From a virus: 64,000 nucleotides of DNA. The stretch covers positions 186,001 to 250,000 of IMG/VR virus record IMGVR_UViG_3300047472_000309. The stretch is one strand, 5' to 3'. Each line of letters opens with the position of its first letter. Within the stretch, counting starts at the first letter, position 1. Below, in pieces: positions 26,744 through 64,000 of this stretch. The translations under genes were made by a program, and so were the position numbers. The notes beneath the pieces are model-generated. The model made no database searches. It saw nothing but the letters and a program-made list of their open reading frames with translations, and had not been told where the DNA came from.

Positions 26744-26745
26744 GA

Positions 26746-27834: not shown

Positions 27835-27846
27835 TGTTTATCCTTG

Positions 27847-48873: not shown

Positions 48874-49941
48874 TTAGTCAACCGTGAAGGGTGCCGTAGG
48901 CGGCGTGAAGTTTGCGGTGTAGCGCGCCAGGGCGCTGATGCGCAACTCGTCGAGATAGCCCTGCACCGGCAACGCAGTGTTCGCCGCATAGTTACCGACG
49001 GTCAGCGGGCTCGTGTTATCACCCCAGGTATTCGGACTCGTCTTGGTCATTACGGCGACGCCGTCGAGATACAGCGTGTAGGCGGTGCCGTGTTTGACAA
49101 AGGCGTAATGGTGCCAGTTACTAATGCTGGGGGCGGGCGACATATTGTATTCGCCGAGAGTATCCAAAGACGAATAGATATTGCCGCCGTAAATCTCGAT
49201 AATCGTCGTGCCCTTGTGAATGATCACCCCTTCGGCGTTCGAACTATTCAGATAGAGCCAGAACTCGATAGTGAAATCAGATTTCAAGTGCAGATTAGCG
49301 ACATCAGGTGTTTGAACATAACTGCCACTCACACCCAGCATGGACGAGCCACCAAATTTCGACTGGGCAGTAGACAAGGCTACGGTGCCCGTTCTGGTGA
49401 AGGTGTGCTGACCCGTGGTGTCGGTAAAAGTAGTGGAGCCATTCGCCCCGTCCATGTGCATGAGCAGAACAGTCTGGGGGGTCGCCCAGTTCAGATTCAC
49501 CGTCGCAGTGCCATCTTCGTAAATCAATGACCCGCTCGCCTGGATGGTGGCCGTAGCTGCTCCACCACCTGCTGGATAAGTCGGTGCGCTCACCCAGCTG
49601 ATTTCGCCGCGAATGAAACCATACCAGTCTGCCACCAAAGCGAGTGTGGCAGCCGGGTCGGTGGTACCACTGGGAATAACTACTGCGCCGGTTGGACTGG
49701 CTATTTCTGCCGCCAAGGCGAGACGCTTATACGTGATATCGACACTACCGATAAAGTTCGCATAATTACCCTGCGGGCCGGTGCCGGTCAAGGTCACTTT
49801 AGTATCTGCGCCATTGGCAAAAGAACCTGTTTGTAAATTACTCACCGTGACTTCATTGGGCAGATTAGGCGCCGAGGCATTCGTGGCGTCGATCAAAGCC
49901 AGCAGATTTTCTACCGGGGTTTTGCTAGGATTGATTTTCAT
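48874..49941 (-). CDS. Array gene: module A plus LamG-like lectin domain (355 aa)
   Basis: Residues 1-150 form module A, starting MKINPSKTPVENLLALIDAT and carrying an NLPNEVTVSNLQTG segment, then ITYKRLALA and WYGFIRGEI. This unit recurs in seven other array genes. Residues about 158-355 are a LamG/concanavalin-type domain: TVLLMHMDGANGS, FTIEFWLYLNSSN, NWHHYAFVKHGTAYTLYLDG and GYLDELRISALARYTANF at the end. It is the last gene of the array, likely part of a receptor-binding tail structure. Confidence 0.8.
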   Translation of the reverse strand: MKINPSKTPVENLLALIDATNASAPNLPNEVTVSNLQTGSFANGADTKVTLTGTGPQGNYANFIGSVDITYKRLALAAEIASPTGAVVIPSGTTDPAATLALVADWYGFIRGEISWVSAPTYPAGGGAATATIQASGSLIYEDGTATVNLNWATPQTVLLMHMDGANGSTTFTDTTGQHTFTRTGTVALSTAQSKFGGSSMLGVSGSYVQTPDVANLHLKSDFTIEFWLYLNSSNAEGVIIHKGTTIIEIYGGNIYSSLDTLGEYNMSPAPSISNWHHYAFVKHGTAYTLYLDGVAVMTKTSPNTWGDNTSPLTVGNYAANTALPVQGYLDELRISALARYTANFTPPTAPFTVD

Positions 49942-49944
49942 CTG

Positions 49945-51027
49945 TTAGTCCATCGTGAAAGGAGCCGCGGACGGGGTAAAGTTACTCGTGTAGCGCGCTA
50001 CACGAGAAATGCGCACTTCATCAATGTCGCCATTGAAGTAAAGTTCTGAACCCGCTGCCACCACCACTGCTCCAATCGATGCAGCATACACAGGGGTCGG
50101 CAGTGCATTACTGGCAGTGATTGAGGCTTTGGCAACCCCGTTGATGTAGATGGTCCAGACGTTGCCTGAACGCACTAATGCGACGTGCTGCCAAGTGTTA
50201 GCCACAATGGTGCCTGCGGCCGTGCCCAAGCCATTGATGAAGTACGAACCAGTGGAGGCGCTGTTTGACGCATACAGTGCCAGACCGCCGCCGGATGAAT
50301 ATAATTGCAAACCCCACGAACAGCAAATAATTCCGCGCTGCGCTGCATCGACCACGCTAGGGTTGATCCAGGCTTCGAGGGTGAAGTCACCAGCCTGAAA
50401 ATTCATCAGGCTATTAGAAAACGTCAGGGCGGCTGCACCGTTAAAAGCAGCCGAGCCTGCGCCGAACTTCTTCGCGGCTGTACTGAGTGTGACCGCACTA
50501 TTAGTAAGGGTGGCGCCGCCGTCATCGGTAAAGGGGATGGCATCAGCGTGGACCAGCAGATTAGTGAGCGGTTGGGTCCAGTTGACCGTGACGCTGGTCG
50601 AGCCGTCCTCGTAGACGTAGGAGCCACTTGATTGCAGCGTCACCGAGCCATTACCTGAACTCGCGGGAATCGTCAAACCGGGGGCGGTAATTTCACCCGG
50701 AATGAAGCCGTAATAGTTCTCGATCGCAAGCAGCGCAGCCGCGAGCGACGATGCGCGAGACACGGCAAGCGTACCGGTCGGGCTTGCTGTTTCTGCCGCC
50801 AGCGTCAGGCGCTTATACGTCACATCGACGCTGCCGGTAAAGTTGGCGTAATTACCCTGCGGGCCTGCACCAGTGAGGGTTATCTTCGTATCGGCGCCGT
50901 TCGCATACGTGCCTGACTGAAGGTTACTCACTGTCACCTCATTGGGAAGATTCGGCGCGGAAGGGTTCGAGGCATCAATAAGTGCCAACAGGTTTTGAAG
51001 GGCACTCTTACTCGGATCAATTTTCAT
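49945..51027 (-). CDS. Array gene: module A plus LamG-like domain (360 aa)
   Basis: Close paralogue of the gene at 48874: MKIDPSKSALQNLLALIDAS, NLPNEVTVSNLQSGTY and the same WYGFIPGEI-type end of module A. The LamG part begins NLLVHADAIPFTDDGG and ends DEVRISRVARYTSNFTP. Start placed at ATG 51027 by comparison; a TTG lies 12 bases upstream. A TATGCCGT module precedes it. Confidence 0.8.
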   Translation of the reverse strand: MKIDPSKSALQNLLALIDASNPSAPNLPNEVTVSNLQSGTYANGADTKITLTGAGPQGNYANFTGSVDVTYKRLTLAAETASPTGTLAVSRASSLAAALLAIENYYGFIPGEITAPGLTIPASSGNGSVTLQSSGSYVYEDGSTSVTVNWTQPLTNLLVHADAIPFTDDGGATLTNSAVTLSTAAKKFGAGSAAFNGAAALTFSNSLMNFQAGDFTLEAWINPSVVDAAQRGIICCSWGLQLYSSGGGLALYASNSASTGSYFINGLGTAAGTIVANTWQHVALVRSGNVWTIYINGVAKASITASNALPTPVYAASIGAVVVAAGSELYFNGDIDEVRISRVARYTSNFTPSAAPFTMD

Positions 51028-51076
51028 ACTGGTCGCCAAAATGAGGAGAGGTCATAAAATGCCCGTGTACGAATTG

Positions 51077-51084
51077 ACGGCATA
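51077..51084 (-). promoter_or_regulatory. TATGCCGT element, possible late promoter
   Basis: Follows six T residues after the hairpin at 51089-51109 and lies 50 bases upstream of ATG 51027. Confidence 0.5.
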
Positions 51085-51088
51085 AAAA

Positions 51089-51109
51089 AGCGGAGCCGAA
51101 GCCCCGCTT
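51089..51109 (-). terminator. Rho-independent terminator after the module A-only gene
   Basis: A 9-base stem (AAGCGGAGC with GCCCCGCTT, one wobble) with a TTCG loop and a T-run on the minus strand. Confidence 0.8.
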
Positions 51110-51128
51110 TTCCTCAGCACTGAAATGC

Positions 51129-51671
51129 TTAGCTGGCGGCGTCGAAACCCGAGAGATCCGTCGTCGCAACAGCCGTGGACAGCGCAACCTGCGGCGCTTG
51201 CCAGGTCATGGCGATTGCTTGCAGCGAACCGTCCACGTACAGCAACGAACCCGCATTGGCCACCAGATCGAGCGTGGCCTGATTGCCGCTCTGCGCACCC
51301 GAAAGCGCCACGCCGGGATCGGCCGGATCTTCAAGATGCACTTCCGAGGCCACGAGGCCGAGCTGGGCGGCCAGTGCCGTGACGATGTCAGCGGCTGTGG
51401 TGCCGGTGGTCGCGGTATAGCTATCGACCGGGCTGAGCACCGAGTCGTTCAGACCCCGGCGCGTGTAGTTGACCGAGACCGAACCCGTGTAGCCCTGACC
51501 ACCAACGGCCGTCAGTGCCACTGTGGTATTACGGCCGTCGCCCGTATCGGACTTGACGCTGGGTGCACCTGCAGTCACTTGCGTGTTCGTGATCGTTTGG
51601 CCGGTGTTAGCAGCATTGACGAGCGCGAGCAGGTTGTCCAACGCCGACAACGATGCGTTGATTTTTGCCAT
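51129..51671 (-). CDS. Array gene: module A only (180 aa)
   Basis: Consists of a single module A (KINASLSALDNLLALVNAAN, GYTGSVSVNYTRRGL and AAQLGLVASEVHLEDP) with no lectin domain. It shows that the module is a stand-alone fold. ATG 51671 has AAGGA at good spacing. Possibly a spacer or base protein in the same structure. Confidence 0.75.
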   Translation of the reverse strand: MAKINASLSALDNLLALVNAANTGQTITNTQVTAGAPSVKSDTGDGRNTTVALTAVGGQGYTGSVSVNYTRRGLNDSVLSPVDSYTATTGTTAADIVTALAAQLGLVASEVHLEDPADPGVALSGAQSGNQATLDLVANAGSLLYVDGSLQAIAMTWQAPQVALSTAVATTDLSGFDAAS

Positions 51672-51759
51672 TTCCATTCCTTAAAGGGAGTGTTCTACTG
51701 CGGCTTGCGCACCTCTTTTTTATAAGAGATACACATAAGATTCAAATATTTTTTACTTC

Positions 51760-53307
51760 TTAGTCTATCGTGAATGCCGCAGCAGGCGGGGTGAAGTTTG
51801 CCGAGTAACGAGCAATCTTACTAAGGCGTAGCTCATCGATCCGGCCACTGAACGGCAGGTACGTGCTACCATTCAGGAAGCTACCGATCCACAACGCATA
51901 GTTGTTGCTACCAAACGTCGCGGAGCTCGTAACAGACTGAACCAATACCCCATCAACAAAACACGACCAGGTGTTGCCAGAGCGCACAAACGCAAAGTGC
52001 TGCCACGTTCCAACTTTGGTCTTCGACGAGTCCGGTGTGCCGACGATGACAGTGCCATCGGGACCCAAGATACGAACCAATCCACTAGTGGACTGGATGT
52101 ACTGATACCCGGCCTGCGCCGAAGTACCTTTGGACAGGATCATGCCGTTCTGGGTTATGTTGGTGTGCCATGCCCAGAATTCGATCGTGAGATCGCCCGT
52201 AAAGCTCAGATCCCCTGGATCGGTCACTGCAAGATAACCGGAACCCGACGGGAAATAGCCCGCCCCAAACATGCCGACGCTGCCTGCTGCCGCTGCGCCG
52301 TTGTTCGTCACCGTATGGCTGAGAACTTCCGTGTAGCCGGTATTGCCTGCATTATCGAAATGCATCAACAGCTTCGTACTGGCGGCAGGTCCTTGACCGG
52401 CAGCGTTGGCAAAGCCCGGCAGATTCAAGCTAGTGACCGCCGCGCTCAGCGCCACTGTGTTCATCAGGTAGACGTCGGTACCCGGCTTATACACGTAACT
52501 GTTTGCATCAGCCACCAGGTGAAGCTTGGTGGTGCCTGCAGCAACGGGACCGTCTACCACATCCATCGGATCAAGGGCCAAGCCATACTTCGTGTTGACC
52601 TGCGCGATCAGGGCACGGATCGTCGTGGCCGAGGCGATCGTACCGAGCAACCAGGTGTTATTGGCGCCACCTAGAAACGCGTTCGCAATATCCGTGCGAT
52701 TGTAATACAGCTTGTACGTGCCCGAGTACTGCTGCAGCAACGTCCCGATCGGCGCCACCGTCACGTAGGTGTTACAGTTCAGCTTCGAACTATCTACAAC
52801 GGGCGCGCTCACCGATAACTGCGACTGGGAGATCGTCTGCTTCGCGTCAGCCTGAATCAATGCCCACAAGCCCGTCAAACCACCTGTCTTGACCTGGGCC
52901 AGTTTCTTCTGCATGACGAATGCAGAGATTTGACGCAACTGACCTTTGGTTGACGACTTCTGCATCACAAAAGCTGACACCTGACGCAGCGCGCCACTAC
53001 TGGACAGCTTCGTCCACGTCACAGCAGGCATTGCCCGGAACCGGGCCGTCAGCGCATCCTGCGTCCATTGCAAGGCTGCCACGCGCCGAATTGACACTGC
53101 GGGATAATCTTGCGACCATTGCAGGGCTGTCACCTTACGCAACGTAACTGGGGTGGGTGAGCTGAACCACTGCACCGCCTGCATCTGACGGAAATACGCG
53201 TTGATGTTTTGTGTCGTCCACACGACAGGCGCGGCTTGACGAACCTGGGCACTGCTGCTCGTTCCTTGCCACACCAGTGGAGCGAAGTAGCGAATTGTTG
53301 TCGTCAT
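51760..53307 (-). CDS. Array gene: eight 17-residue repeats, module A, LamG (515 aa)
   Basis: Residues 5-140 are eight tandem 17-residue repeats. Each starts with a hydrophobic residue then Arg, and holds A or P at position 6 and W or M at position 9 (for example IRRVAALQWTQDALTAR). Residues about 145-300 form module A (GLWALIQADAKQTISQSQLS, YKLYYNRTDIANAF). Residues about 310-515 are LamG-like (TKLLMHFDNAGNTG, LTIEFWAWHTNITQNG, DELRLSKIARYSANFTPP). Followed by an AT-rich gap with a possible TATG promoter near 51738. Confidence 0.8.
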   Translation of the reverse strand: MTTTIRYFAPLVWQGTSSSAQVRQAAPVVWTTQNINAYFRQMQAVQWFSSPTPVTLRKVTALQWSQDYPAVSIRRVAALQWTQDALTARFRAMPAVTWTKLSSSGALRQVSAFVMQKSSTKGQLRQISAFVMQKKLAQVKTGGLTGLWALIQADAKQTISQSQLSVSAPVVDSSKLNCNTYVTVAPIGTLLQQYSGTYKLYYNRTDIANAFLGGANNTWLLGTIASATTIRALIAQVNTKYGLALDPMDVVDGPVAAGTTKLHLVADANSYVYKPGTDVYLMNTVALSAAVTSLNLPGFANAAGQGPAASTKLLMHFDNAGNTGYTEVLSHTVTNNGAAAAGSVGMFGAGYFPSGSGYLAVTDPGDLSFTGDLTIEFWAWHTNITQNGMILSKGTSAQAGYQYIQSTSGLVRILGPDGTVIVGTPDSSKTKVGTWQHFAFVRSGNTWSCFVDGVLVQSVTSSATFGSNNYALWIGSFLNGSTYLPFSGRIDELRLSKIARYSANFTPPAAAFTID

Positions 53308-53317
53308 TCACTCCTCC

Positions 53318-54391
53318 TTAGTTAGTGGGCGTCAGTACGAACTGAGTCTGATTAATCTTCGTGCCCGTCCAGCTCGCACCATCCGGTGCTTTTGTCTGCC
53401 AAGGCAACTTCTGGTTTAGTACCAATCCATTGCCATTGGCAAACTGACCAAGCGATGAGACGTTACTGGAAGCGTCCGTAAAGGTCGCTGCAATCTTGGC
53501 TGGACCGGCCGCACTGGGTTGAAATGAGAGCGTCGGTTGAACTGCCAGGACTTTCTGGCCAGTATCATTAACCGTGGCGAGCATCGTCACCGCCAGGGAC
53601 TGGTTATCTACCGGAGACTGCGCATACGGACTGATGACAGGCGGGTTCTGGTTAGCCGTATTGAGTACCGTCACCAGATCGGCTGCGCCGTTGGGTGTCC
53701 ATTCCGAGCCAGAGACGGCCGCCGCGCGCGACGCTTTGGCGCGAATCGGCCCCAGTCGACCCGGCGTCGATGCATCTACATCCAGGAAGTAGAAATCGCG
53801 ATAGCCGCGCGCGTAATTCGCGCTGCCGGTCGACGCACCCCCAAAGGTAATGTAGCCGGTGCTGGCAAATACAGCGGACGTCACTGTACCGGAATTGATC
53901 AGAATGCCGTTGCCGTATACCTGGAACGTCAGCGCGACGCGATCGATAAAGACCTCGATGTAGATCTCACCACCCACTCCCACCATCCCTGCTGCGATCA
54001 GATGTGACTCATCGAGCAGCGAAGTCCAGCTACCGAAGGACGTGTTGCTGGACACGATGACAACGTGGCACGCCCCCACCGTGTTATTCACGATCAACTT
54101 CGTGCGGAAACCAAACCAATACTGCGTTGCCCCACTCCAGTCTTGCACGGCTGCGGTGGGCACGAAAAGCGCCCCACATTGTCCGGACGAATTGGCAGCG
54201 TTCGACAGAAAGCCATCGGCCGTCACGGAGAAGATGTTGCTTGGGGTACTGTTATTAACGTAGGTGAGCGGCTGACCGACGTTGCCAGTGTACTGGTTAT
54301 AGATCGTGTTGCCGTTATAACTCGATCCAGCAGCACTCAGTGTCATCCCCACTGGCGCATTCTCAAAATGCCACAAATCGTGAAGGGCCAT
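53318..54391 (-). CDS. Array gene: module B (357 aa)
   Basis: Full-length module B: MALHDLWHFENAPVGMTLS, a lectin-like half with GYRDFYFLDVDASTPGRLGP, then VLNTANQNPPVISPYAQSPV and a closing domain ending KAPDGASWTGTKINQTQFVL. Four other genes share this order. No LamG part. Probably a tail-structure subunit in the same assembly as the neighbours. Confidence 0.75.
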   Translation of the reverse strand: MALHDLWHFENAPVGMTLSAAGSSYNGNTIYNQYTGNVGQPLTYVNNSTPSNIFSVTADGFLSNAANSSGQCGALFVPTAAVQDWSGATQYWFGFRTKLIVNNTVGACHVVIVSSNTSFGSWTSLLDESHLIAAGMVGVGGEIYIEVFIDRVALTFQVYGNGILINSGTVTSAVFASTGYITFGGASTGSANYARGYRDFYFLDVDASTPGRLGPIRAKASRAAAVSGSEWTPNGAADLVTVLNTANQNPPVISPYAQSPVDNQSLAVTMLATVNDTGQKVLAVQPTLSFQPSAAGPAKIAATFTDASSNVSSLGQFANGNGLVLNQKLPWQTKAPDGASWTGTKINQTQFVLTPTN

Positions 54392-54406
54392 GTTCGTTAC
54401 TCTCTA

Positions 54407-55441
54407 TTACGGGGTGAGGGTCGCGACCATCGCCGCCAGCGACTGAGGCGTGAAGGACGTCCCATCCGGTGCTTTCTCGAGCACAAACGCGTTCTGATTC
54501 CAGTACATTTGTGCGCCGTTCGGATAGGTAATCTGTTTACCATTAACAGACTGGCCATTATACGCAACACTTGCCTGTGGTGCGAAGATGTAGCTTGGCG
54601 TGCGCTGACCCGACACGTCCGCTTTTGCAGCGAGAATACTTTCGCCTGCAATCAGGCCCGCATTCGAGAGCTTGAACTGCAGCGGGTCCATGCTCGCGGG
54701 CTCCGTCACCAGCGGTGCATTTTGCGTCGGCGTCGTTATACCCAGCGCCGTCGACAGATCAGCAAGCGCCGTGCTGCTATCGCTGGAGGTCCAGTTCGGT
54801 GCCGTCACGCTGGCCAAAGCAGCTGGCGTAACATCAATCGGACCAAGACGATTGCACTGTGTGGCGTCTTGCGTGTCGTCTAGGAAATAGACGTCGCGAA
54901 TCTGGAACACGTAGCCCGCTGCGCCGTTATTCCCCCACACCAGGTTACACTTGTTATCCGCCGACACAAACGCATTGAAGTCGAAGAACACCGAGGGCTG
55001 CGCCACACCATCGATCCAGACGACGATCTGCGTATTCGCCCGGTCGATCATGATTTCGACGTACTGGTTGGTATTGAGCGCGAGTTGCGTATTGCTCACC
55101 AACGTTTGTTTGGTGCCCGCTGTATTCGTCAAGAACAACACCGGTGTGGCGGTCGCGATATTATTGATGCTGACCCGAAAACCGATGAAACTGCGCCGGG
55201 TCGTAAAATCACTGAGCGCCTGATACGGATGATTCGCATTGGGCGAATAGGTCCCGTAATTCGTATTCGGATAGGGGTTAGTATCCGTGCGGAAATACAG
55301 CCAGCCACCGCTCGAATAGATTGTCCCATACTGGCTGTAAACACCGGTGATGGTGAAGTCACCGCGCAAGAACTGCATCACCGTCGTATAGGTGGTGTAA
55401 GCAGGCAGATTGTCGAAGCCCCAAAAATCTCGGATAGCCAT
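54407..55441 (-). CDS. Array gene: module B (344 aa)
   Basis: Module B paralogue: MAIRDFWGFDNLPAYTTYTT, IRDVYFLDDTQDATQCNRLG, then TALGITTPTQNAPLVTEP and a KAPDGTSFTPQSLAAMVAT end. No LamG part. The start is preceded by GAG-rich sequence. Confidence 0.75.
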   Translation of the reverse strand: MAIRDFWGFDNLPAYTTYTTVMQFLRGDFTITGVYSQYGTIYSSGGWLYFRTDTNPYPNTNYGTYSPNANHPYQALSDFTTRRSFIGFRVSINNIATATPVLFLTNTAGTKQTLVSNTQLALNTNQYVEIMIDRANTQIVVWIDGVAQPSVFFDFNAFVSADNKCNLVWGNNGAAGYVFQIRDVYFLDDTQDATQCNRLGPIDVTPAALASVTAPNWTSSDSSTALADLSTALGITTPTQNAPLVTEPASMDPLQFKLSNAGLIAGESILAAKADVSGQRTPSYIFAPQASVAYNGQSVNGKQITYPNGAQMYWNQNAFVLEKAPDGTSFTPQSLAAMVATLTP

Positions 55442-55475
55442 CTTTAAACTCTCTTGATGATAACGAACATAAAAA

Positions 55476-55507
55476 CCCCGACACCCTCCCTGAGGAGAGC
55501 GTCAGGG
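55476..55507 (-). terminator. Hairpin between two module B genes
   Basis: A 7-base outer stem with inner pairing, followed on the minus strand by TTTTTATGTTCG, another possible TATG element. The stop at 55522 lies 15 bases upstream. Confidence 0.6.
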
Positions 55508-55521
55508 CTCTCGTGCCGTTA

Positions 55522-56598
55522 CTAGGTGGTCGACACGGGCTGGACGATCAACTGCGTCGCATTAAAGCGCGCATCACTCCACGCATTGCCACTCGGGTCC
55601 GTCGTTTGCGGACCCGATAGATCCCGACCGTAATCCATCGTCGTATCTGTGAAACTATAGGTAGGCAGATTCTTCGTGGCTGACCCGTTATTCAGTTGTG
55701 CCGTAACTTGCGCGGCCGTCGCCACGCTCGCCGCCATCTTGTACTGCACCGCAATCATGCCTGCACCCGCAGGCGCGGTCGACTGATACGTCACCGTGAT
55801 CGGGTCGTTGGTCGGGGCATTGGACTGCGTCGGCGCAGGTGCCGGGGCTGCGCTGTAGCCGGTCTGAAAATCCAGCAAGGCGGACTTACCGTCGCTTGAT
55901 GAGTAGTTCGGGGCGCTCACAGCCGCGTACTGGGCGACGGCCGACTGAATCGGACCCAGCCGCGTATTGGGTAGGGTGGCATCGGCATCGACGAAGTAGA
56001 AGTCCTGCAACGAGAAGTTACAGGCGTTCGTGGTCACTGCGTTCGAGCCAAATACCAGATACGTGAAGCCAGTCGCCAGCGCCGCCTTATCGATGATCTT
56101 CAACCCATCGACCCAGGCCGAGTACTGACTATTGGCGATGTCAAGCATCACTTCCACGTACTGTGTAACGTTCACCGTCCGGCTGAGCTGTGTCTCGTTC
56201 ACCAGTGAGGTCGGCACCGCTGTCGCCGAGGAAGCCGTCCCAAATACCGACGAAGTGCCCGGTGCGGGAATCGCTGAGCTCCAGGTGCGAAAACCAAGGT
56301 AAGCTTTGGTCGCGCCGCTTTGCAGCAAAGGAATATCGGCAAGTGCCACGACCAGTGCCTGAGCCTGCGAAGTGCTATTGCCAAATCCCAATCCACCACC
56401 GCGATAAGTGCCACCCGACGCACCTGCCACCACGCTATTGATCACGCAGTTTGACGCACCAGCGCGCAGAATCAGCGTACCCGGATTACCGGTGAGCTGG
56501 TTATACGCATTGTTCGGTGTGTACGCAGCGATCGCAGTCAGCGGGACGTTGGATGCGTTGGCAATGTGATCGTACGTCCACAAGGCTCGCAAAGTCAT
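55522..56598 (-). CDS. Array gene: module B (358 aa)
   Basis: Module B paralogue: MTLRALWTYDHIANASNVPL, QYVEVMLDIANSQYSAWVDG, LQDFYFVDADATLPNTRLGP, then APNYSSSDGKSALLDFQTGY and a closing domain with LSGPQTTDPSGNAWS. It is the un-inserted reference for the permuted LamG gene at 58442. Confidence 0.8.
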   Translation of the reverse strand: MTLRALWTYDHIANASNVPLTAIAAYTPNNAYNQLTGNPGTLILRAGASNCVINSVVAGASGGTYRGGGLGFGNSTSQAQALVVALADIPLLQSGATKAYLGFRTWSSAIPAPGTSSVFGTASSATAVPTSLVNETQLSRTVNVTQYVEVMLDIANSQYSAWVDGLKIIDKAALATGFTYLVFGSNAVTTNACNFSLQDFYFVDADATLPNTRLGPIQSAVAQYAAVSAPNYSSSDGKSALLDFQTGYSAAPAPAPTQSNAPTNDPITVTYQSTAPAGAGMIAVQYKMAASVATAAQVTAQLNNGSATKNLPTYSFTDTTMDYGRDLSGPQTTDPSGNAWSDARFNATQLIVQPVSTT

Positions 56599-56680
56599 GT
56601 TAATCTCTCTTCAAAGAAACTGGGTCTGGAAGCCATTTAGTAAAAAAATAACTTCCAGAATACACATCATTAGCCGCCTT

Positions 56681-58354
56681 TTAGTCGAGCACAAAGGGTG
56701 CCGCAGGCGGGGTAAAGTTCGCGGTGTAGCGCGCGATGTTACTCACCCGCAGTTCATCGATGTAGCCTGGGAACTGCGAAGCCGTGTTGTACTGGTTGCC
56801 GCCAATCGTCCACGTACTACCCGATAGTCCAAAGGTCAGTGCCGACGTCAGAGTACCTTGGGCGACCCCGCCGATGTAACCCGTGTAGACACCATTCGCG
56901 TACACCACAGCACAGTGCTGCCATTTGTTTAGCGTAAAGGCTGCAGCCGAGGCCAGTGACTTCCAGCCCGAGCCGTCGGTCAGGTAGATACCCAGTCCCT
57001 TGTCGCTTTGCTGACCAATGGAGGTTTGTGTCGTCGTCGTGTTGGCGGTCTTCGAACTGAGAATGGTTGTGTCGCCCAGGGCTGCGGTCCGATAGAGCCA
57101 GAACTCAACCGTCATGGCGTTACCAAGCACCATCGTCGAATCGGAGGCAACCGAGAGGTTACCTGTGGTACCCGAGTTATACGACTTGCTCCCCATGGCC
57201 ACTTGACCCGTGGTAAGCACGCCATTACCGTTCGACGTCCAGGTCCGACCTGTGTCATCGACAAAGCTTTCCATGTGCATCAAGAGCACGGTGTTCAGGG
57301 TCTTCGGCGTGAGGATCGCGCTCGTCGCATTGATCTTTGCCGGAGTCCACAACCCACCATCCGGTGCCTTACGCTGCACGCCCCACTTCTGGTTATAGAG
57401 GTTCGTGTTCGGTGACACCACAATTTTACCCGCATCCAGCGTGTTCGATGCCTGACTAAACGACACATCGATCGAATTCGACGCTGAATCACCGATCAGG
57501 GTAAGTTGTGGCTGCACGGCGATGATGGGGGTATTCGCCGACACACCGGTGCTCATGTTCGCAGTCACGGGTTGATTATTCGCCGGGGCTGACGCACTAG
57601 GCGTCGTGACCGGCGGGTTCTGCAAGGCAGTCGTGATTGCTGTCGGCAAATCCGCCGCACTATTGAGCGTCCAGCCCGCTCCAGCGATATTCGAAAGCGC
57701 GGCGGGCGAGGAGCGAATCGGTCCCAATCGTACCGTATCCGTGCTGTCGAAATCCAGGAAGTAGAAGTCCCGATAACCTCGTGCAGCATTCGCCGTACCT
57801 GCCGTACCGCCCGTACCAAATACACCATAGCCGGTTGCGGGAAACGCGCTGGCGCCATACGCCGCCGAGCGCACGAGATTACCATTCACATACAACCAGT
57901 ACGTGAATGTCGCTGAGTCCACGATGAGCTCCACATAGAGCTCAGTATTGGCGGGGGCCACCAGATCTGCTTCGTTGATCCAGATCAGCAGCGTGGCGGT
58001 CGCCCAGCCTGCGGTTGTAATGAAGACTCGGCCAGGCGTGGAGCCTGTGACGGCCTGAGTCGACTTGGTGCGAAAACCAATGCCCCACTTGGTGGCCCCC
58101 GACATGTTCAGCGCCTGCGCCAGCTTGAACCAAATCATGCTCCCGTTGCCGCTGGAGTTATTCGTCGAAGTGGCAAAGCCGTTTGCATCCACTGCAAGCG
58201 GGCTGCTTGCGTAGGTGTACGTGCAGCCTGGATTGCCCGTATAGTAGTTGTAAACGTTGCTCGGACCCGTTGTCGAGGTGAGGTCAGTCGTGCCGGTGAG
58301 CAAACTTGTACCCACTGGCGCATTATCAAACGACCACAAGTCATGGATTGCCAT
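56681..58354 (-). CDS. Array gene: module B plus C-terminal LamG (557 aa)
   Basis: Residues 1 to about 345 form module B (MAIHDLWSFDNAPVGTSLLT, GYRDFYFLDFDSTDTVRLGP, KAPDGGLWTPAKINATS). A LamG domain follows at about 352-557 (TVLLMHMESFVDDTGR, MTVEFWLYRTAALGDT, KWQHCAVVYANGVYTGYIGG, DELRVSNIARYTANFTPPAA). GGAG precedes the ATG. It shows that LamG can be appended to module B. Confidence 0.8.
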   Translation of the reverse strand: MAIHDLWSFDNAPVGTSLLTGTTDLTSTTGPSNVYNYYTGNPGCTYTYASSPLAVDANGFATSTNNSSGNGSMIWFKLAQALNMSGATKWGIGFRTKSTQAVTGSTPGRVFITTAGWATATLLIWINEADLVAPANTELYVELIVDSATFTYWLYVNGNLVRSAAYGASAFPATGYGVFGTGGTAGTANAARGYRDFYFLDFDSTDTVRLGPIRSSPAALSNIAGAGWTLNSAADLPTAITTALQNPPVTTPSASAPANNQPVTANMSTGVSANTPIIAVQPQLTLIGDSASNSIDVSFSQASNTLDAGKIVVSPNTNLYNQKWGVQRKAPDGGLWTPAKINATSAILTPKTLNTVLLMHMESFVDDTGRTWTSNGNGVLTTGQVAMGSKSYNSGTTGNLSVASDSTMVLGNAMTVEFWLYRTAALGDTTILSSKTANTTTTQTSIGQQSDKGLGIYLTDGSGWKSLASAAAFTLNKWQHCAVVYANGVYTGYIGGVAQGTLTSALTFGLSGSTWTIGGNQYNTASQFPGYIDELRVSNIARYTANFTPPAAPFVLD

Positions 58355-58396
58355 AACCTACTCCAATGTAATTCGATGACATAAGCGGACACCCAA

Positions 58397-58422
58397 TCTC
58401 CTCTCCTCACCTAGGAGAAGAG
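58397..58422 (-). terminator. Hairpin after the permuted array gene
   Basis: A CTCCT/AGGAG-type stem with some outer pairing, about 20 bases after the stop at 58442. CTTATGTCAT follows on the minus strand. Confidence 0.5.
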
Positions 58423-58441
58423 ACCGAATGCCCTCTCATGT

Positions 58442-60166
58442 TTAGTTGATGTTCGCCGCTGTGGTCGACTGCGGTTGCAACACCAGGTTAGTCGCCGAAA
58501 TGGTACTGCTAGTCCAGGCGTTGCCATTCGGATCGGTCGTCTGAATGCCCGCCAGATCTCGTGTGTACTGCGCTGCGGTATCGCGAAACTGATACGTCGC
58601 CAGTGCCTTGTTGGTTGCGCCTTCTTGGAGCGAAGCCAACAGGTTTGTCGCAAACGGTACCTGCGCGGCGAGCTTATACTGCATCGCGAGAACCTTCTGT
58701 CCGGCCGGAACGCTCGCAGAGAAGTTCACCGTCATGGGTTGATTATCCGCGCCGTTTTGGACGAACGGTGTAATAGCAGGTGTGGCCGCGTAAGCCGTTT
58801 GCAAAGCCGACACTGTGTTACCACTCGAATCTGCCACGTACGTCGAGCCATTAAGCACGCTCGCGTCCAGATGCATCAGGAGCATTGTGTTGGCATCCGT
58901 CGTGAACGGCCCAGTCGGCGGAGTAAAGCCTGTCGTGTAGCGTGCCACATTCGAGACCCGGAACTCATCAATGTAACCTTGCCAGGGACTGGTTAGATTG
59001 TTATTATTGCCGAGAATCAGGTTCGCCGTATTGTTACCGAATGTCGCGTTGCTCGCCACGTTACCCAACGCCACCCCGTTCTGGTAAATGGTCCAGGTGC
59101 CTTGGTAGCGGACCAGCGCCAGATGGAACCACTGGTTGACCACCGGGTTACCTGTCACACTGAGCGCGGGCGTGCCCGAACTCTGGTCGGTAAGGAGCTG
59201 CCACACGCCTGAGACATATTGCAAACGCCCCCACGGTGAAGCGCCTGAGTCCTTACCCAGAAAACCTGCCGACTGCCCAGCATTGGTGCTCATGGCCCAG
59301 CACTCGTACGTCATGTCACCCGTTACCGTGCGGTACTGCACGGCATCAGGAATCACCACTGCGCCGCTGGCAGCACCATTCGTCGTAAATGAAGCGGGGC
59401 CAAACTTCGCCTGAGCATTCGAAATCGCCGATGCGCCATTCAGCGTACCGATAAAGTTTCCGTAGTTCGGCGCTTGCACGCCGCTGACAAGCGGGCTAAG
59501 CGGCGTGCTCGTGATCGGACCGAGACGACCATTGGGCTTGGTGGCGTCCACATCCAAGAAGTAGAAGTCTCGGAAGGCCTGTCCGAACGAGCCGCTAAAG
59601 GTTTGACCACTGTAGACGAAGTGAGTGAAACCGGTTGGCAGCGTCCCACTGGTAGTCGGCAGGCCATTGACGTAAGTCTGATACGTGTGGTTAGCGTTAT
59701 CCAGGAAAACTTCGACGTACTGTGCACCTGCTACGCCCGCTGTCACGCGATTAAGCTGGGTTTCGTTGATAAGTGAAACAATGTTAGCGCCTGAACTGCC
59801 GAGCGCGCCCGACGCGGAAGACGGCAACACACCGAAACAATTACAACCGCTTGGTGCAAGACCAGTGGCGTAGGTACGGAAGCCCAACCAGGCCTGCGTA
59901 GCGCCACCCTGAAACAGACCAGAATCCGCCAGCGAAATCACATAACCCGCATACAGCGTGGAGTTACTGACCGCCAAACTCAGCCAACCCGGTGAAGGCG
60001 TGGTGCTGATGTTAGCGCCATTGGAGCTGTTGCCGGTCATGATCGCGCCAGGCGCGCCGTACTGAGTCTGAAGGCTATTCGGCGTGGCATAGGTAGTGCC
60101 GACCGTCAACGCAAACGCAGCCGTGAGCTGAACATGGTCAAACGAGATTAATGCGCGGAGCGTCAT
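58442..60166 (-). CDS. Array gene: module B with an apparently permuted LamG insertion (574 aa)
   Basis: Module B runs to residue 235 (QAPNY). It resumes at about 446 (DSSGNTVSALQTAYAATPA), where the un-inserted paralogue reads APNYSSSDGKSALLDFQTG. Between them lies a LamG body (236-424: MTYECWAMSTNAGQSAG, NQWFHLALVRYQGTWTIYQN, DEFRVSNVARYTTGFTPPTG) that lacks the usual opening. The opening (NTMLLMHLDASVLNG, then VADSSGN) instead comes at 427-451, after the body. ATG 60166 has AGAGGG upstream and matches its paralogue. Confidence 0.8.
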   Translation of the reverse strand: MTLRALISFDHVQLTAAFALTVGTTYATPNSLQTQYGAPGAIMTGNSSNGANISTTPSPGWLSLAVSNSTLYAGYVISLADSGLFQGGATQAWLGFRTYATGLAPSGCNCFGVLPSSASGALGSSGANIVSLINETQLNRVTAGVAGAQYVEVFLDNANHTYQTYVNGLPTTSGTLPTGFTHFVYSGQTFSGSFGQAFRDFYFLDVDATKPNGRLGPITSTPLSPLVSGVQAPNYGNFIGTLNGASAISNAQAKFGPASFTTNGAASGAVVIPDAVQYRTVTGDMTYECWAMSTNAGQSAGFLGKDSGASPWGRLQYVSGVWQLLTDQSSGTPALSVTGNPVVNQWFHLALVRYQGTWTIYQNGVALGNVASNATFGNNTANLILGNNNNLTSPWQGYIDEFRVSNVARYTTGFTPPTGPFTTDANTMLLMHLDASVLNGSTYVADSSGNTVSALQTAYAATPAITPFVQNGADNQPMTVNFSASVPAGQKVLAMQYKLAAQVPFATNLLASLQEGATNKALATYQFRDTAAQYTRDLAGIQTTDPNGNAWTSSTISATNLVLQPQSTTAANIN

Positions 60167-60210
60167 GATTCCCTCTGTCAAAAAGCTTAATGCATATTCC
60201 AGGAAAGCCT

Positions 60211-60227
60211 CTGGGAGGCTCTCCCAG
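60211..60227 (-). terminator. Hairpin after the 114-aa gene
   Basis: A 7-base-pair stem (CTGGGAG with CTCCCAG) close to the stop at 60236. GGAATATGCATT follows, a further TATG candidate. Confidence 0.6.
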
Positions 60228-60235
60228 AATCGGTA

Positions 60236-60580
60236 TTACGCTTGTCGCGGCGTTTCGTTGTACTGCAAAACCAGAAGATTGTGTGGACCATTCGCCCACG
60301 GCAACTCCAGCACCAACGCGTACTTGAACAAAGCGTTCGAGGGTAGGTGCGTGTGGTTCACGCCGTTAAACTTCACCTCAGTCCCAGCCAACGTATAAGG
60401 CTCTTCTTCTTTGTCGGTCCATTGGGCACGATGCTCGCCCTTGTCATGGGTGCTCAAAGATGCCGCCAGAAGCGTCGCATCCGTCGCACTCAATACACCG
60501 AGTGGTACTTTCGTCAGCACATCACCATCGCTGGAAAAGTCCGTGAAGAAGAGATAGTTCGGCCAAAAAGTCGTTGCCAT
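60236..60580 (-). CDS. Array-associated hypothetical protein (114 aa)
   Basis: No family recognised. Beta-rich with WPNYLFFTDFSSDGDVLTKV, then AGTEVKFNGVNHTHLPSNAL and an acidic stretch (KEEEPYTLAG). AAAGGA precedes the ATG. Probably a small structural or accessory part of the array product. Confidence 0.6.
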   Translation of the reverse strand: MATTFWPNYLFFTDFSSDGDVLTKVPLGVLSATDATLLAASLSTHDKGEHRAQWTDKEEEPYTLAGTEVKFNGVNHTHLPSNALFKYALVLELPWANGPHNLLVLQYNETPRQA

Positions 60581-60593
60581 CTCACATCCTTTC

Positions 60594-61094
60594 TTAGAAG
60601 CCCGTCAGTACGTTCGAGTAGAACAGATTACTGATGTTAGGCAAGGGAGCCAACACGCAGTCAAATGACCCGGTGTACCCGTAGGAGGTCGACAGCGCAG
60701 TCAACGTCACGTGGGTGTTACCGTCGCTGCCGGTCGTGGTCTGCGCGTCGGCAATATCTGCCATCGTGAGCGTGAAGCCATACTGGTCACGAATCGTGGT
60801 GAGCACCGTGGACACATCGTTACCCGGTGCGGCCGTAATCAGCACCGGCGAGAAGTTGGACCACGCACCCAGATCGAGTCGATCGTAGTACAGCGTCAGG
60901 TAGCCCCGCATGGGAGCGCCCGGATTCATCAACACACTAACTTTGGTGTTCTTTCCACCCGCCACGTCCGCTTGTTCAGCGGTGGTCGTAGGCTTGATAG
61001 CCTGGACAGTGAATTGGCTTGAAGTAACCGTCAGGCCAGAGGCCGCACTGATCATTGACGCGAGGTCATCAATCGAGCTTTGATACAGACTCAC
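60594..61094 (-). CDS. Array gene: module A only (166 aa)
   Basis: Module A alone: MSLYQSSIDDLASMISAASG, GYLTLYYDRLDLGAW, TTIRDQYGFTLTMADIADAQ. Ends with a hydrophobic FYSNVLTGF. Like the gene at 51129 it lacks a lectin domain. Confidence 0.75.
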   Translation of the reverse strand: MSLYQSSIDDLASMISAASGLTVTSSQFTVQAIKPTTTAEQADVAGGKNTKVSVLMNPGAPMRGYLTLYYDRLDLGAWSNFSPVLITAAPGNDVSTVLTTIRDQYGFTLTMADIADAQTTTGSDGNTHVTLTALSTSYGYTGSFDCVLAPLPNISNLFYSNVLTGF

Positions 61095-61106
61095 GCTGAC
61101 CTCCCG

Positions 61107-61988
61107 TTAATTAAAATGCAAGTAGAGCTGACCCTGAAACCAGGACCCTGCGACAGCCGTGATCACTGTCACGTTAGCGTACTTGTTACTGTTCGCACCC
61201 GGCACGCTTGCAGCGGGCAGCACATAGCGCGTCATCGCCAAATTACCCAGACCGCCTTGGGTAGCTGAATCCTGCCCACTGAAATTCAGGTCTGGGCGGC
61301 TTTGTTGCAAATACGCGAGCACAGCCGAGTAGTTCGCCTGGGTCCAGTTGGTCGGTGTGGCTGACGCAACGGACGAAGGCAAAGCCAGCAAGGCCGTGCG
61401 AATCTGTGAGCAATCCAACCCATAGGTCAACACGTCGGCTTGGGGCTTACGGCCACCGCCAAAGGTATTGCCCCCTGGATACAGCTTACCAGCGAGCACT
61501 TGATTCGTGATCGCCTGGTGCATGGTCGGCACCCCCTGCGTCCACTTAAACGTGAACGAGCCTTCGTAGCACAGCGAGCCTGCGACGATCGAAACCGGGT
61601 ACGACGTTCCGGAGGTAAAGCTCGTGTTGCTAAAGTCACTCGGCACCAACTCCGTACCGTACTTCGTATTGAACGCCGTACAGAACTGCGCCGCCGTCAT
61701 GGTAGTTGAGCCGAGATAGTTATCCAGCGTCAACGTCATGCTGCGGAAAAGATTGGCGAGGTTAATTCGCCGGTAGTACAGCGTCTGCGTCCCGATATAC
61801 TTACCGAGGTTACCCGGCACTGAGAGCAGTCTAAGACTCGTGTCCTGGATCTGTCCCGACCCAGGCGTTACTGCAGTTGGCACCAACGTCCGAAGCATGT
61901 CGACCGTCAGCGGCACCTTCAAGCCCGGATTCGACGTGTTAATCAACCCGAGCAAGGTGTTCAACTGCGTGTCAAGAAATGGGTACAT
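61107..61988 (-). CDS. Array gene: module A with C-terminal LYLHFN domain (293 aa)
   Basis: Starts MYPFLDTQLNTLLGLINTSN with the module A pattern (LYYRRINLANLFR, YGTELVPSDF). Its C-terminal half, about 130 residues ending QLYLHFN, is shared with the genes at 62041 and 62944 and, by its end, the gene cut by the right edge. This is a third recurring unit in the array. Confidence 0.75.
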   Translation of the reverse strand: MYPFLDTQLNTLLGLINTSNPGLKVPLTVDMLRTLVPTAVTPGSGQIQDTSLRLLSVPGNLGKYIGTQTLYYRRINLANLFRSMTLTLDNYLGSTTMTAAQFCTAFNTKYGTELVPSDFSNTSFTSGTSYPVSIVAGSLCYEGSFTFKWTQGVPTMHQAITNQVLAGKLYPGGNTFGGGRKPQADVLTYGLDCSQIRTALLALPSSVASATPTNWTQANYSAVLAYLQQSRPDLNFSGQDSATQGGLGNLAMTRYVLPAASVPGANSNKYANVTVITAVAGSWFQGQLYLHFN

Positions 61989-62004
61989 TCAACACCTCGT
62001 TTCA

Positions 62005-62027
62005 GGGAGTGGGGGTGACCCACTCCC
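62005..62027 (-). terminator. Hairpin after the 297-aa gene
   Basis: A perfect 9-base-pair stem (GGGAGTGGG with CCCACTCCC) with a 5-base loop, 14 bases after the stop at 62041. TATGC lies on the plus-strand side, inverted relative to most modules. Confidence 0.7.
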
Positions 62028-62040
62028 CTATGCTCTCGAC

Positions 62041-62934
62041 TTAGAAGTTGTTCGGGTCGAACGGATCGTTGTAGTGCAGATACAACGTGCCCGAAGGCGT
62101 CGTCTGACTCGCCGCCAGCTGAATGGCCATCACGTACTTGTACGCCGGATTAGTCGGATTGTTCACTGCGTCATTCAGTCCGTTCGAGAGAATGGTCGCC
62201 CCCGTCAAGTTCCAAGTCGTGTTCGCACCCGTGTCCACCCACAACGCCTTACCTGCGCCAACATCTACCGCCTGGATAGCGGCTAACACGGCATCGAGCT
62301 GCGCTTGCGTCATCGCGCCCGGCGCATAGGTGAGGAAGGTCGATTGCCATGACGTAAAGTCGTACGGATACAGATAGGCCGGACCGTACACCGCGGTAGC
62401 GGGCGGTGCTGACGCATCGGCCACCGGATAGTTAATACCCGGCAATTGCGTGGTCGAGGCAGCTGCATCAAGCGGCACGCCGCCTGCGACGACATTGAGC
62501 ATCACACTACCTTGCCAGCCAAGCGAATTCGGATCGGCCGAAAGCTGCACCTGACCCGTACCGTCGCCATTGAGCGTGATGGGCAGATTCTGCAAATCCC
62601 CCTGCACGAACTGGATACCCAGGTAGTATGCGAGCTGCGGTAGGATGTCCCAGGTCGTCTGAGGGTTGCTCACGGCCAGATCCGTGACACCGGGCAGATT
62701 GGCCAGCTGGGCCAAATCGAGGCGATTGTAGAGAATCACCTGCGAGCCTTGATAACTTACTGAAGCCGCCGTTACTTTCACAGCGGTGTTGCGATCGCTT
62801 GACAGACCTTGCCAGGTCCCCGAGACCACTTTCGGATTCGAGAACGACAGATCAGACGCCATAAACGGCGTCGCATTGGCCGCGTTGATCGCGTTCAGCA
62901 AATCAGTCAAGGATGGGAGTTGAAAAGTCGACAT
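62041..62934 (-). CDS. Array gene: module A with LYLHYN-type domain (297 aa)
   Basis: Module A pattern near the N-terminus (SLTDLLNAINAANATPFMAS, VILYNRLDLAQLANL). The C-terminal half includes a WNLTGATILSNGLNDAVN stretch and ends SGTLYLHYNDPFDPNNF. Paralogue of its neighbours at 61107 and 62944. Confidence 0.75.
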   Translation of the reverse strand: MSTFQLPSLTDLLNAINAANATPFMASDLSFSNPKVVSGTWQGLSSDRNTAVKVTAASVSYQGSQVILYNRLDLAQLANLPGVTDLAVSNPQTTWDILPQLAYYLGIQFVQGDLQNLPITLNGDGTGQVQLSADPNSLGWQGSVMLNVVAGGVPLDAAASTTQLPGINYPVADASAPPATAVYGPAYLYPYDFTSWQSTFLTYAPGAMTQAQLDAVLAAIQAVDVGAGKALWVDTGANTTWNLTGATILSNGLNDAVNNPTNPAYKYVMAIQLAASQTTPSGTLYLHYNDPFDPNNF

Positions 62935-62943
62935 ATCTCACCC

Positions 62944-63921
62944 TTAAACGTTGTAATGCAAGATGATCCGGCCCGCACCCCACGACGCTGCTCCAGGCAG
63001 ATCGAGATACAGTGCGCGATTGAAGTACTTGCTGTCCGCTTCCGGCAGGGCCGCACTGGGCAGGGTCACGTTCGTGAACTTTAGCCCATACAGACTGTAC
63101 GGGGTCGAGGCCGGATTGGTGAAGTTGTACTGCCCGACGGTTGCTGCGTTGATCGAAGCCAGCAGCGAGTTATGGACTGTCGCGCCTGTGCCGGTTTGGG
63201 TGCCCAGGGCGTAGCTGGTCAAGTAAACAAGGACTTGAGCCAAGCTCTGGCTCGCCGCTACACCCGCTTGGTTAAGCGCATTAGTCCAGTCAATCGAGTA
63301 GAAATCCAGATCCGGCACGTAGATCGAGTTATCGACCACGTTACGCCCACCAGGGAACACTCGCGCGTTTTCCAGACTCGTCACCGAAATCATCGAACCG
63401 ATGTCTTGCGGCGCTTGCACCCAGTAAAGCGCAAAGCTCCCGATGAAACCGGGGCTGCCGGTGGCGGCAGCGACGTTCACCGAGCTGTTACGCGTGCCTG
63501 CGGCCAGACCGATCGCCGCAACGGCGTTGGTGTTACCCGCGGGCAGGCTTGCATCGACGATGTCGGTTGCGCTCAGGCTCAGACCGTACTTGGCGTTGAT
63601 CGATGGCAACAAGTCCGAGATCTTGTACGGGGAAACACCTGCTCCAGCAGGCGAATACTTGTAAATAACGATCGGCAGATTGCGAAACAAAATGCCGAAA
63701 TCCAACCGACGATACAACAGCGTGGTGTTACCCACGTATTTGGTTCCGGCCTGTGCGGTGACCTTGATCGACGTATTCTGAACATTACCGCCCGTGGGAG
63801 TGACAGCGGTCGGCGTCCCGTAAAGCGCATTCGTCGCGGTCAGCGGTACAGGCAGAGAGGGATTCGCTTGGTTGATCAGGTCAACCAGCATCTGCATGGA
63901 CTGCTTGGGATAAAGAGACAT
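62944..63921 (-). CDS. Array gene: module A with LYLDLP/ILHYN-type domain (325 aa)
   Basis: Module A: MSLYPKQSMQMLVDLINQAN, NTTLLYRRLDFGILFRNLPI, INAKYGLSLSATDIVDASLP. The second half (DFYSIDWTNALNQAGVAASQ, then ALYLDLPGAASWGAGRIILH) belongs to the same unit as in the two genes to its left. It ends YNV, 10 bases before the next gene's stop. Confidence 0.75.
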   Translation of the reverse strand: MSLYPKQSMQMLVDLINQANPSLPVPLTATNALYGTPTAVTPTGGNVQNTSIKVTAQAGTKYVGNTTLLYRRLDFGILFRNLPIVIYKYSPAGAGVSPYKISDLLPSINAKYGLSLSATDIVDASLPAGNTNAVAAIGLAAGTRNSSVNVAAATGSPGFIGSFALYWVQAPQDIGSMISVTSLENARVFPGGRNVVDNSIYVPDLDFYSIDWTNALNQAGVAASQSLAQVLVYLTSYALGTQTGTGATVHNSLLASINAATVGQYNFTNPASTPYSLYGLKFTNVTLPSAALPEADSKYFNRALYLDLPGAASWGAGRIILHYNV

Positions 63922-63931
63922 GGTTCAAGCC

Positions 63932-64000
63932 CTAACGATTTTCGAGGACGTTGTAGTGAAAGTACAGGGCGCTGCCATAGAAGACGCCGCCCCAAATCGT
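63932..64000 (-). CDS. Array gene, C-terminal end only (cut by window edge)
   Basis: Twenty-two codons before a TAG at 63932. The peptide ends GSALYFHYNVLENR, matching the LYLHFN/LYLHYN-type ending of the three genes to its left. The rest lies beyond the window. Confidence 0.7.
   Translation of the reverse strand, partial: TIWGGVFYGSALYFHYNVLENR

Follow-up and report, generated by a model that had tools for sequence, protein, structure and literature searches.

A jumbo-phage array of DUF7941 and lectin-like genes with LamG domains exchanged among relatives: candidate plug-plus-passenger virion proteins

Introduction

Why does a phage genome devote a long run of neighboring genes to a few recurring domains in changing combinations? 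This question is raised by a gene array at the end of a 64,000-nt stretch of virus DNA (the window), which comprises bases 186,001-250,000 of the 310,654-base IMG/VR record IMGVR_UViG_3300047472_000309. A preliminary description of the window had listed at least fifteen consecutive minus-strand genes assembled from a module A, a module B, LamG-like lectin domains and a C-terminal unit of LYLHYN type. It had proposed that they form a host-recognition structure whose parts are exchanged by recombination, and knew of no name for such an arrangement. In T7 gp17-like and similar receptor-binding proteins, a constant N-terminal docking domain is combined with an exchangeable C-terminal host-binding part. 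Here we report that one family, Pfam DUF7941, contains module A as its first half and the LYLHYN unit as its second, that a homolog of the full-length family is found in the baseplate periphery of phage phiKZ, and that LamG domains have moved between A genes and B genes. We lean, if only modestly, towards a reading in which A is an N-terminal virion-docking plug, the rest of each A protein is an exchangeable head that binds the host surface, and the B proteins are a companion lectin-fold set.

Results

Module A and the LYLHYN unit are two halves of DUF7941

Open reading frame (ORF) and profile mapping placed 14 complete minus-strand genes at 48,874-63,921 of the window, followed by a fifteenth that is cut by the window edge. 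The array extends beyond the window to 68,378 in continued window numbering, so that 19 minus-strand genes lie at 48,874-68,378 (Table 1). Within the window, A is present in eight complete genes (g1, g2, g3, g4, g11, g12, g13 and g14), B in five (g5-g9), LamG (Laminin_G_3, PF13385) in five (g1, g2, g4, g8 and g9) and the LYLHYN unit in four (g10, g12, g13 and g14), with LamG joined to A in three genes and to B in two. All of these counts had been given exactly in the preliminary description. Over the whole array, A occurs in 13 genes, B in five, LamG in six and the second half of DUF7941 alone in one (g10). The nearest annotated relative is Burkholderia phage FLC9, whose host is Burkholderia glumae according to its record; it was the sole phage-collection record matched, at 67% identity over 58% of a 6.9-kb query. 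Closer still are three IMG/VR contigs, G1 (315,190 bases), G2 (313,315) and G3 (172,464), in which g13 is 95-96% identical.

Module A corresponds to the first half and the LYLHYN unit to the second half of Pfam PF25613 (DUF7941, 276 positions), to which g12, g13 and g14 align over almost its full length. A and the LYLHYN unit thus do recur, as had been described, but they are not independent units. PF25613 matched six window A genes at E 2.6e-7 to 1.2e-50, and all 14 matches in the record, comprising 13 array genes and one remote site, exceeded the 27-bit Pfam gathering cut-off. The remote site, record 89,593-90,024 on the plus strand, holds a gene with A alone at a great distance from the array; FLC9, G1 and G2 each have one such remote counterpart. 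PHROG 1037, described as 'virion structural protein' in the category 'head and packaging', matches A and, over almost the full length, g12, g13 and g14, and it also matched g10, for which Pfam gave no match at E<=1. At 60236-61094 of the window a full-length DUF7941 is split into two adjacent genes, with the first half in g11 and the second in g10 directly downstream, and this split is kept in FLC9 (gp318/gp317) and in G1-G3. A lone DUF7941 C-half gene is also found in Vibrio phage pVa-21.

Homology among the copies of each module is strong by Pfam, PHROG and profiles. Homology between the N- and C-halves of DUF7941, as expected from an internal duplication, was not supported by profile comparison (probability 12%); a relationship between A and B was likewise not supported by profile comparison. 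NCBIfam gave no match for any of the five proteins searched, and in the literature searched the term 'DUF7941' turned up in one paper, on a Spiroplasma and a Rickettsia.

A DUF7941 homolog lies in the phiKZ baseplate periphery

When a profile of 16 full-length DUF7941 proteins was compared with the PDB, it matched the PHIKZ127 chain of entry 9xqd at E 5e-23, and the only other row at E<=10 had an E of 0.3. The entry, which is known by its title as no accompanying paper was found, is called 'The structure of outer peripheral region in the phage phiKZ baseplate complex'. Detection of gp127 required the 16-sequence profile, since single-sequence PDB searches returned nothing at E<=1 for g13 and only weak unrelated rows for g5 (best E 0.077). 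The structure model of g13 also ranked PHIKZ127 first (Foldseek E 1.7e-6; VIA Z 7.5 over 132 residues with a root-mean-square deviation of 4.1, next row Z 4.5). However, this model has a low confidence (predicted local distance difference test, pLDDT, 62) and a Z of 7.5 is attainable by chance, so the claim of gp127 homology is carried by the sequence profile and not by the model.

The PHIKZ127 chain is modelled for 150 of 290 residues and the alignment ends at residue 150; the built part of gp127 in 9xqd is the N-half, and the C-half is unbuilt. Because only the N-half is built, we infer that this half docks and that the remainder points away. phiKZ resembles the array in having this full-length DUF7941 homolog but differs from it in that three A modules could be detected and LamG was absent at E<=0.001. 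Literature searches found no cryo-electron microscopy (cryo-EM) paper on phiKZ gp127 since 2021, and none of the works since 2024 returned for phiKZ baseplate or neck cryo-EM is, by its title, a phiKZ structure paper; in PMC6690015, gp127 denotes a dihydrofolate reductase of another phage.

A is mostly N-terminal and is followed by varied passengers

The stretches examined from 12 phages encode 128 A-bearing proteins, and in 120 of them A starts no later than residue 30. Eight depart from this pattern: the g4-type gene in this phage, G1, G2, G3 and FLC9 (gp310), FLC9 gp314, phiKZ gp143 and one partial match in Xanthomonas phage LucasX. The passengers behind A differ between phages. LucasX combines A with a GTA TIM barrel (E 9e-107) and Calx-beta repeats, and also with an alpha/beta hydrolase; Goslar has a tail-sheath-type TIM barrel (E 5e-85) and DUF285 as passengers, and Klebsiella phage KpLz-2_45 has passengers that match hydrolase and tail-fiber PHROGs. 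In Salmonella phage SPN3US, gp155 matches the Gp38 tail-fiber adhesin family (PF05268, E 7e-18) and a PHROG named 'tail fiber protein; host specificity' (E 2.5e-19). Two of the ten long A proteins scanned had no Pfam partner domain.

A conserved N-terminal domain is thus followed by varied C-terminal domains, and the array can be likened to T7 gp17-like proteins with their constant anchor and exchangeable C-terminal part. It differs from them in that many different proteins in one genome have the same putative anchor, and in that this anchor is a DUF7941 domain. The host-recognition role proposed in the preliminary description is plausible because the phiKZ homolog lies in the outer baseplate periphery and because the same N-half carries adhesin-like and enzyme-like domains elsewhere; the SPN3US relatives, as described below, are counted as head proteins.

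Two proteins have unusual layouts. Residues 1-140 of g4 (window 52888-53307) consist of W-containing repeats of ~20 residues ahead of A, and g4 is the sole array gene with A away from the N-terminus. In FLC9 gp310 (26237-29467 of the FLC9 stretch), A is followed by two domains of concanavalin A (ConA) type that are split by a long glycine-rich stretch.

LamG domains have moved between A genes and B genes

Five phages were compared: this phage, G1, G2, G3 and FLC9. The order of orthologous genes is identical in all five, whereas domain content differs, so that the relatives keep their shared genes in place and vary in composition. The FLC9 array (gp307-gp326) has the shared genes in the same order, with per-domain identities of 38-86%, but gp315 is an additional B+LamG gene, gp314 contains further LamG units and gp310 has different C-terminal domains. 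In G1-G3, one A+LamG gene occupies the place of g1 and g2. The C-terminal domain of g4 differs in G1 and FLC9, whose g4 genes carry a different ConA-type domain, 59% identical to each other.

In this phage, G2 and G3, g4 is an A gene whose LamG matches the third LamG unit of the B gene gp314 in FLC9 at 66-69% identity (branch support 100/99). G1 has a single A+LamG gene, and its LamG shares 73% identity with the one in FLC9 gp315, also a B gene (support 100/99). Other pairs from different positions reach at most 53% among the six best listed per domain, and same-position pairs range from 34% (g1 vs G1) to 100%. A single clade of B-carried LamG domains was rejected (approximately unbiased test, p 6e-55), and at least three changes of carrier are forced by well-supported branches. 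These sequence comparisons indicate that LamG moved between A genes and B genes among the five phages, and they bear out the modular build and recombinational exchange that had been proposed at the outset. Neither outcome that the preliminary description had named as refuting, a lack of homology between the modules or one uniform domain order in all relatives, was obtained.

In most A genes, sequence identity tends to be higher in the A half than in the part behind it. Identities to FLC9 for the A half and the following part(s) were 79/64% in g12, 83/81% in g13, 77/45% in g14, 77/69% in g15, 71/62/49% in g16, 66/65% in g16b and 61/38% in g1. LamG is the fastest-changing part of g1, of g16 and, in comparison with G1 and FLC9, of g4; in g16 compared with G1 and G2, both DUF7941 halves are 95-98% identical (the C-half 1-2 points higher) and LamG 60-61%. 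A change-point test on 38 ortholog pairs gave 18 significant results at p<=0.01. The N-side was more conserved in all 14 of those in A genes, whereas the four in B genes disagree, with the N-side higher in one and lower in three.

Only three of the 18 change points fall close to a module border (10 residues or less), and the weak overall leaning towards borders (Kolmogorov-Smirnov p 0.017) comes from pairs that are not independent. Exchange exactly at module borders was therefore rejected as a general rule, and the comparisons show border swapping for single genes. As crossover sites, DNA repeats are suggestive only: the longest family spans 254 nt at 74% (starts of g1 and g2), and the ends of LamG in five genes carry a 57-nt family at 65-75%.

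ConA-like and LamG folds also serve protein contacts, and DUF7941 and B proteins could be purely structural paralogs, arisen through duplication and divergence, that build and stiffen the peripheral baseplate or neck, with LamG used for protein-protein contacts and no part in host recognition. This would fit the several members that consist of A alone and are highly conserved in G1 and G2. We regard it as improbable, given that passengers vary between phages and include the Gp38 adhesin and enzyme-like domains, and that LamG changes fastest in the genes named above.

Module B is predicted to open with a lectin fold

The in-house profiles of B (E 5e-41 to 4e-148) and LamG (E 1e-47 to 2e-85) were built partly from the same sequences, and the Pfam and PHROG values are the independent test. 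All six LamG matches in the record exceeded the Pfam gathering cut-off; module B in g5 had no Pfam match at E<=1 and matched PHROG 2448, to which no function is assigned. Residues 1-213 of the g8 model, whose confidence is modest, form a ConA-like jelly roll with VIA Z 11.6-15.4 among the 50 rows listed, which include many lectins, carbohydrate-binding domains and a mycobacteriophage central fiber. A second beta domain follows in the model; its LamG half (pLDDT <50) was not used. Module B is thus predicted to open with a ConA-like lectin fold. Kinship to clostridial neurotoxin binding domains, the top Foldseek rows for g8, was rejected and read as the common ConA-like jelly roll only.

The B profile matched four of the nine records searched, all of the FLC9 group, and B was found in G3 by blastp. 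A tblastn search with g5 matched 98 phage records including FLC9. The 97 others were weak and partial, and those listed are mostly ~59-kb Salmonella phages with 27-30% identity over 49-75% of the query; with g7, FLC9 was the only match. B is therefore not wholly private to the FLC9 group. At E<=0.001, LamG was found in one of eight records searched, FLC9 alone. It is also present in G1-G3 and in Chiangmaivirus FLC8, where the LamG-bearing and A-bearing open frames are separate.

The LamG of g9 interrupts B in all five phages, where it sits between the two B domains. In g9 it matches model positions 29-204 at residues 239-429 and then 3-38 at residues 428-473; this second piece is weak (E 0.003 in g9, 0.0014 in G2 and G3) and was not reported in G1 or FLC9, although a matching stretch after the LamG end is visible by eye in the g9, G1 and FLC9 proteins. 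The g9 LamG thus appears to be circularly permuted, with its first strand region after its last, and it may be a remnant of tandem LamG copies such as are still present in FLC9 gp314. The annotated starts of FLC9 gp311, gp312 and gp313 appear too far downstream, as the B match reaches upstream of them.

The array is the counterpart of SPN3US paralog family B

The preliminary description's statement that the arrangement has no name does not hold, as the domain is Pfam DUF7941 and the array is the counterpart of a published family. Salmonella phage SPN3US has 17 DUF7941 sites, and its array is paralog family B: locus tags SPN3US_0138 to 0155 (JN641803) and computed masses agree, with gp141 (32.6 kDa) and gp143 (31.9 kDa) at the values in Table 1 of PMC5694885. 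In the SPN3US papers, family B comprises gps 83, 138-154, 161 and 237 in the text and gp160 in Table 1 (PMC5694885), has no putative function (PMC5694885) and is described as perhaps the largest paralog family that any one phage genome contains (PMC5105663). The main texts of three SPN3US papers yielded no mention of gp155, and PMC7411985 none of the family B terms.

The SPN3US and present arrays share sequence homology and contiguity: both are contiguous runs of DUF7941 proteins, those of SPN3US being virion proteins, in which full-length copies are followed by A-plus-passenger copies. Unlike the present array, SPN3US has neither LamG nor B, and its passengers are an unnamed C-terminal module shared by gp145, gp148 and gp151 and, in the next gene, gp155, the Gp38 adhesin. 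DUF7941 was found in 11 of the 17 clustered members (gp138-154). The other six (gp146, gp147, gp149, gp150, gp152 and gp153) had no A-profile match and carry only a second module, common to gp145, gp148 and gp151. The published family B thus mixes two modules and is not one family.

According to PMC5105663 and PMC5694885, a tailless mutant contained family B, which is expected to be head-located and whose function is not known; of the 55 head proteins in a table of PMC10052503, 21 are paralog B proteins. This head assignment is the main evidence against a baseplate site for the array proteins, and the phiKZ structure stands opposed to it. The two-module make-up of family B limits the head evidence only in part, as abundant gp141 and gp160 and mid-abundant gp143 all carry DUF7941.

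Array proteins might accordingly decorate the capsid exterior as head-surface lectins or head fibers, with A docking on the capsid and adhesion proceeding from the head instead of the baseplate. In favor of such a role are the head-assigned DUF7941 proteins, two of which (gp141 and gp160) are abundant (Table 1 of PMC5694885), the central outer protein of SPN3US hexamers, whose identity is not known and which is present in 260 copies per capsid (PMC7552025), and the PHROG 1037 category. The location of phiKZ gp127 speaks against it, as does gp237, a DUF7941 protein by position and the sole listed family B member reassigned to the tail (PMC10052503). We consider head decoration unlikely, though a serious contender. 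Far less probable, to the point of being nearly dismissible, is that the proteins are ejected internal head proteins, as queried for family B members by the Table 1 comment 'Head ejection?' for gp141, gp143 and gp160 (PMC5694885). These three are not among the eight protease-processed head proteins named in that paper, and lectin, adhesin and hydrolase passengers and a baseplate homolog are unsuited to cargo.

Gene map and neighboring genes

Upstream of the array are homologs of phiKZ gp98 and gp99, which are chains of the neck-structure entry 9xps, and of phiKZ gp101 (9xph), whose relative in 36za is named 'Inner-peripheral baseplate spoke'; these adjoining genes count in favor of a baseplate site. 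They are followed, only a few genes from the array, by two genes that match internal-head-protein PHROGs and that count in favor of head decoration. In LucasX, an A-only gene directly follows a gene cluster of similar sizes and order, a likeness by sizes and order alone.

Promoter-like sites were about as frequent as in shuffled sequences (8 vs a mean of 7.2), and terminator-like sites numbered 18 vs 13.8 in shuffles. A strong intrinsic terminator-like hairpin, with 19 pairs followed by TTTTT, lies on the minus strand at window 55471-55512, between g7 and g6.

Table 1. Genes of the array in window numbering, continued beyond the window edge.
Gene	Position	Strand	Content	Matches and remarks
g1	48874..49941	-	A (DUF7941 N-half) + LamG	PF25613 E 2.6e-7; PF13385 E 2e-19
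g2	49945..51039	-	A + LamG	PF25613 above Pfam cut-off
g3	51129..51677	-	A alone	PF25613 E 3.3e-18; 86% to FLC9 gp309
g4	51760..53307	-	short W-containing repeats + A + LamG	PF25613 E 3.9e-17
g5	53318..54391	-	B alone	phrog_2448 E 2e-10; B profile
g6	54407..55441	-	B alone	PHROG search; B profile
g7	55522..56598	-	B alone	B profile
g8	56681..58354	-	B + LamG	predicted ConA-like fold in residues 1-213 of model mc39a250dc960
g9	58442..60181	-	LamG inserted between two domains of B	LamG apparently circularly permuted
g10	60236..60580	-	DUF7941 C-half alone (LYLHYN-type unit)	phrog_1037 187-283 E 1.8e-7
g11	60594..61094	-	DUF7941 N-half alone	PF25613 1-169 E 7e-23
g12	61107..61988	-	full-length DUF7941	PF25613 E 1.7e-41
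g13	62041..62934	-	full-length DUF7941	PF25613 E 1.2e-50; structure model m923f2708adba
g14	62944..63921	-	full-length DUF7941	PF25613 E 2.7e-42
g15	63932..64807 (window part 63932..64000)	-	full-length DUF7941	
g16	64,820-66,322	-	both DUF7941 halves + LamG	
g16b	66,331-67,161	-	DUF7941, N- and C-half	
g17	67,234-67,806	-	A alone	
g18	67,839-68,378	-	A alone	

Discussion

We propose a plug-plus-passenger build for the products of the array, which would be a set of virion surface proteins. The DUF7941 N-half would anchor each of them in the virion, with the outer baseplate periphery as the likeliest site by analogy with phiKZ gp127, and the part after A, whether the DUF7941 C-half or LamG, would face outward and contact host-surface glycans. 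The B genes would provide companion lectin-fold proteins, each with a ConA-like jelly roll and a C-terminal beta domain and some with LamG. Recombination would move LamG between A and B genes and swap it at gene 3' ends, so that related phages may keep the same sockets and carry different binding heads. Docking by A in this phage, the baseplate location, glycan binding and an effect on host range are what we infer from the homology and exchange described above.

Apart from the SPN3US head assignment, several observations count against this proposal. Four array genes are A alone (g3, g11, g17 and g18), PHROG 1037 is filed under 'head and packaging', and the B proteins lack A and are unrelated to it by profile comparison. 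Compared with G1 and G2, A is not the more conserved part in the split pair g11/g10 (79/84% and 87/96%) or within the DUF7941 halves of g16, and g13, g15 and g16b are conserved in both halves. The scarcity of change points near module borders points the same way. Several array proteins, namely the A-alone genes and g13, g15 and g16b, may be purely structural.

In the jumbo-phage regions inspected, genes of this kind mostly bear the label 'hypothetical' or 'virion structural protein', and N-terminal DUF7941 could serve as a sequence handle for candidate host-binding proteins in jumbo phages. The comparison of five phages also offers a clear example of lectin domains that have moved between two unrelated carrier families. 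Through the link to a phiKZ baseplate-periphery protein and to adhesin-, lectin- and hydrolase-like passengers, family B gains a testable role. In a broader view, which we hold tentatively and at somewhat under an even chance, phiKZ-like jumbo phages use the DUF7941 N-half as a general virion socket, with a dozen or more host-surface proteins per genome on the same plug and their heads swapped by recombination. If true, this would account for SPN3US paralog family B, which is large and has no assigned function, and one virion could display a combinatorial set of lectins, adhesins and enzymes.

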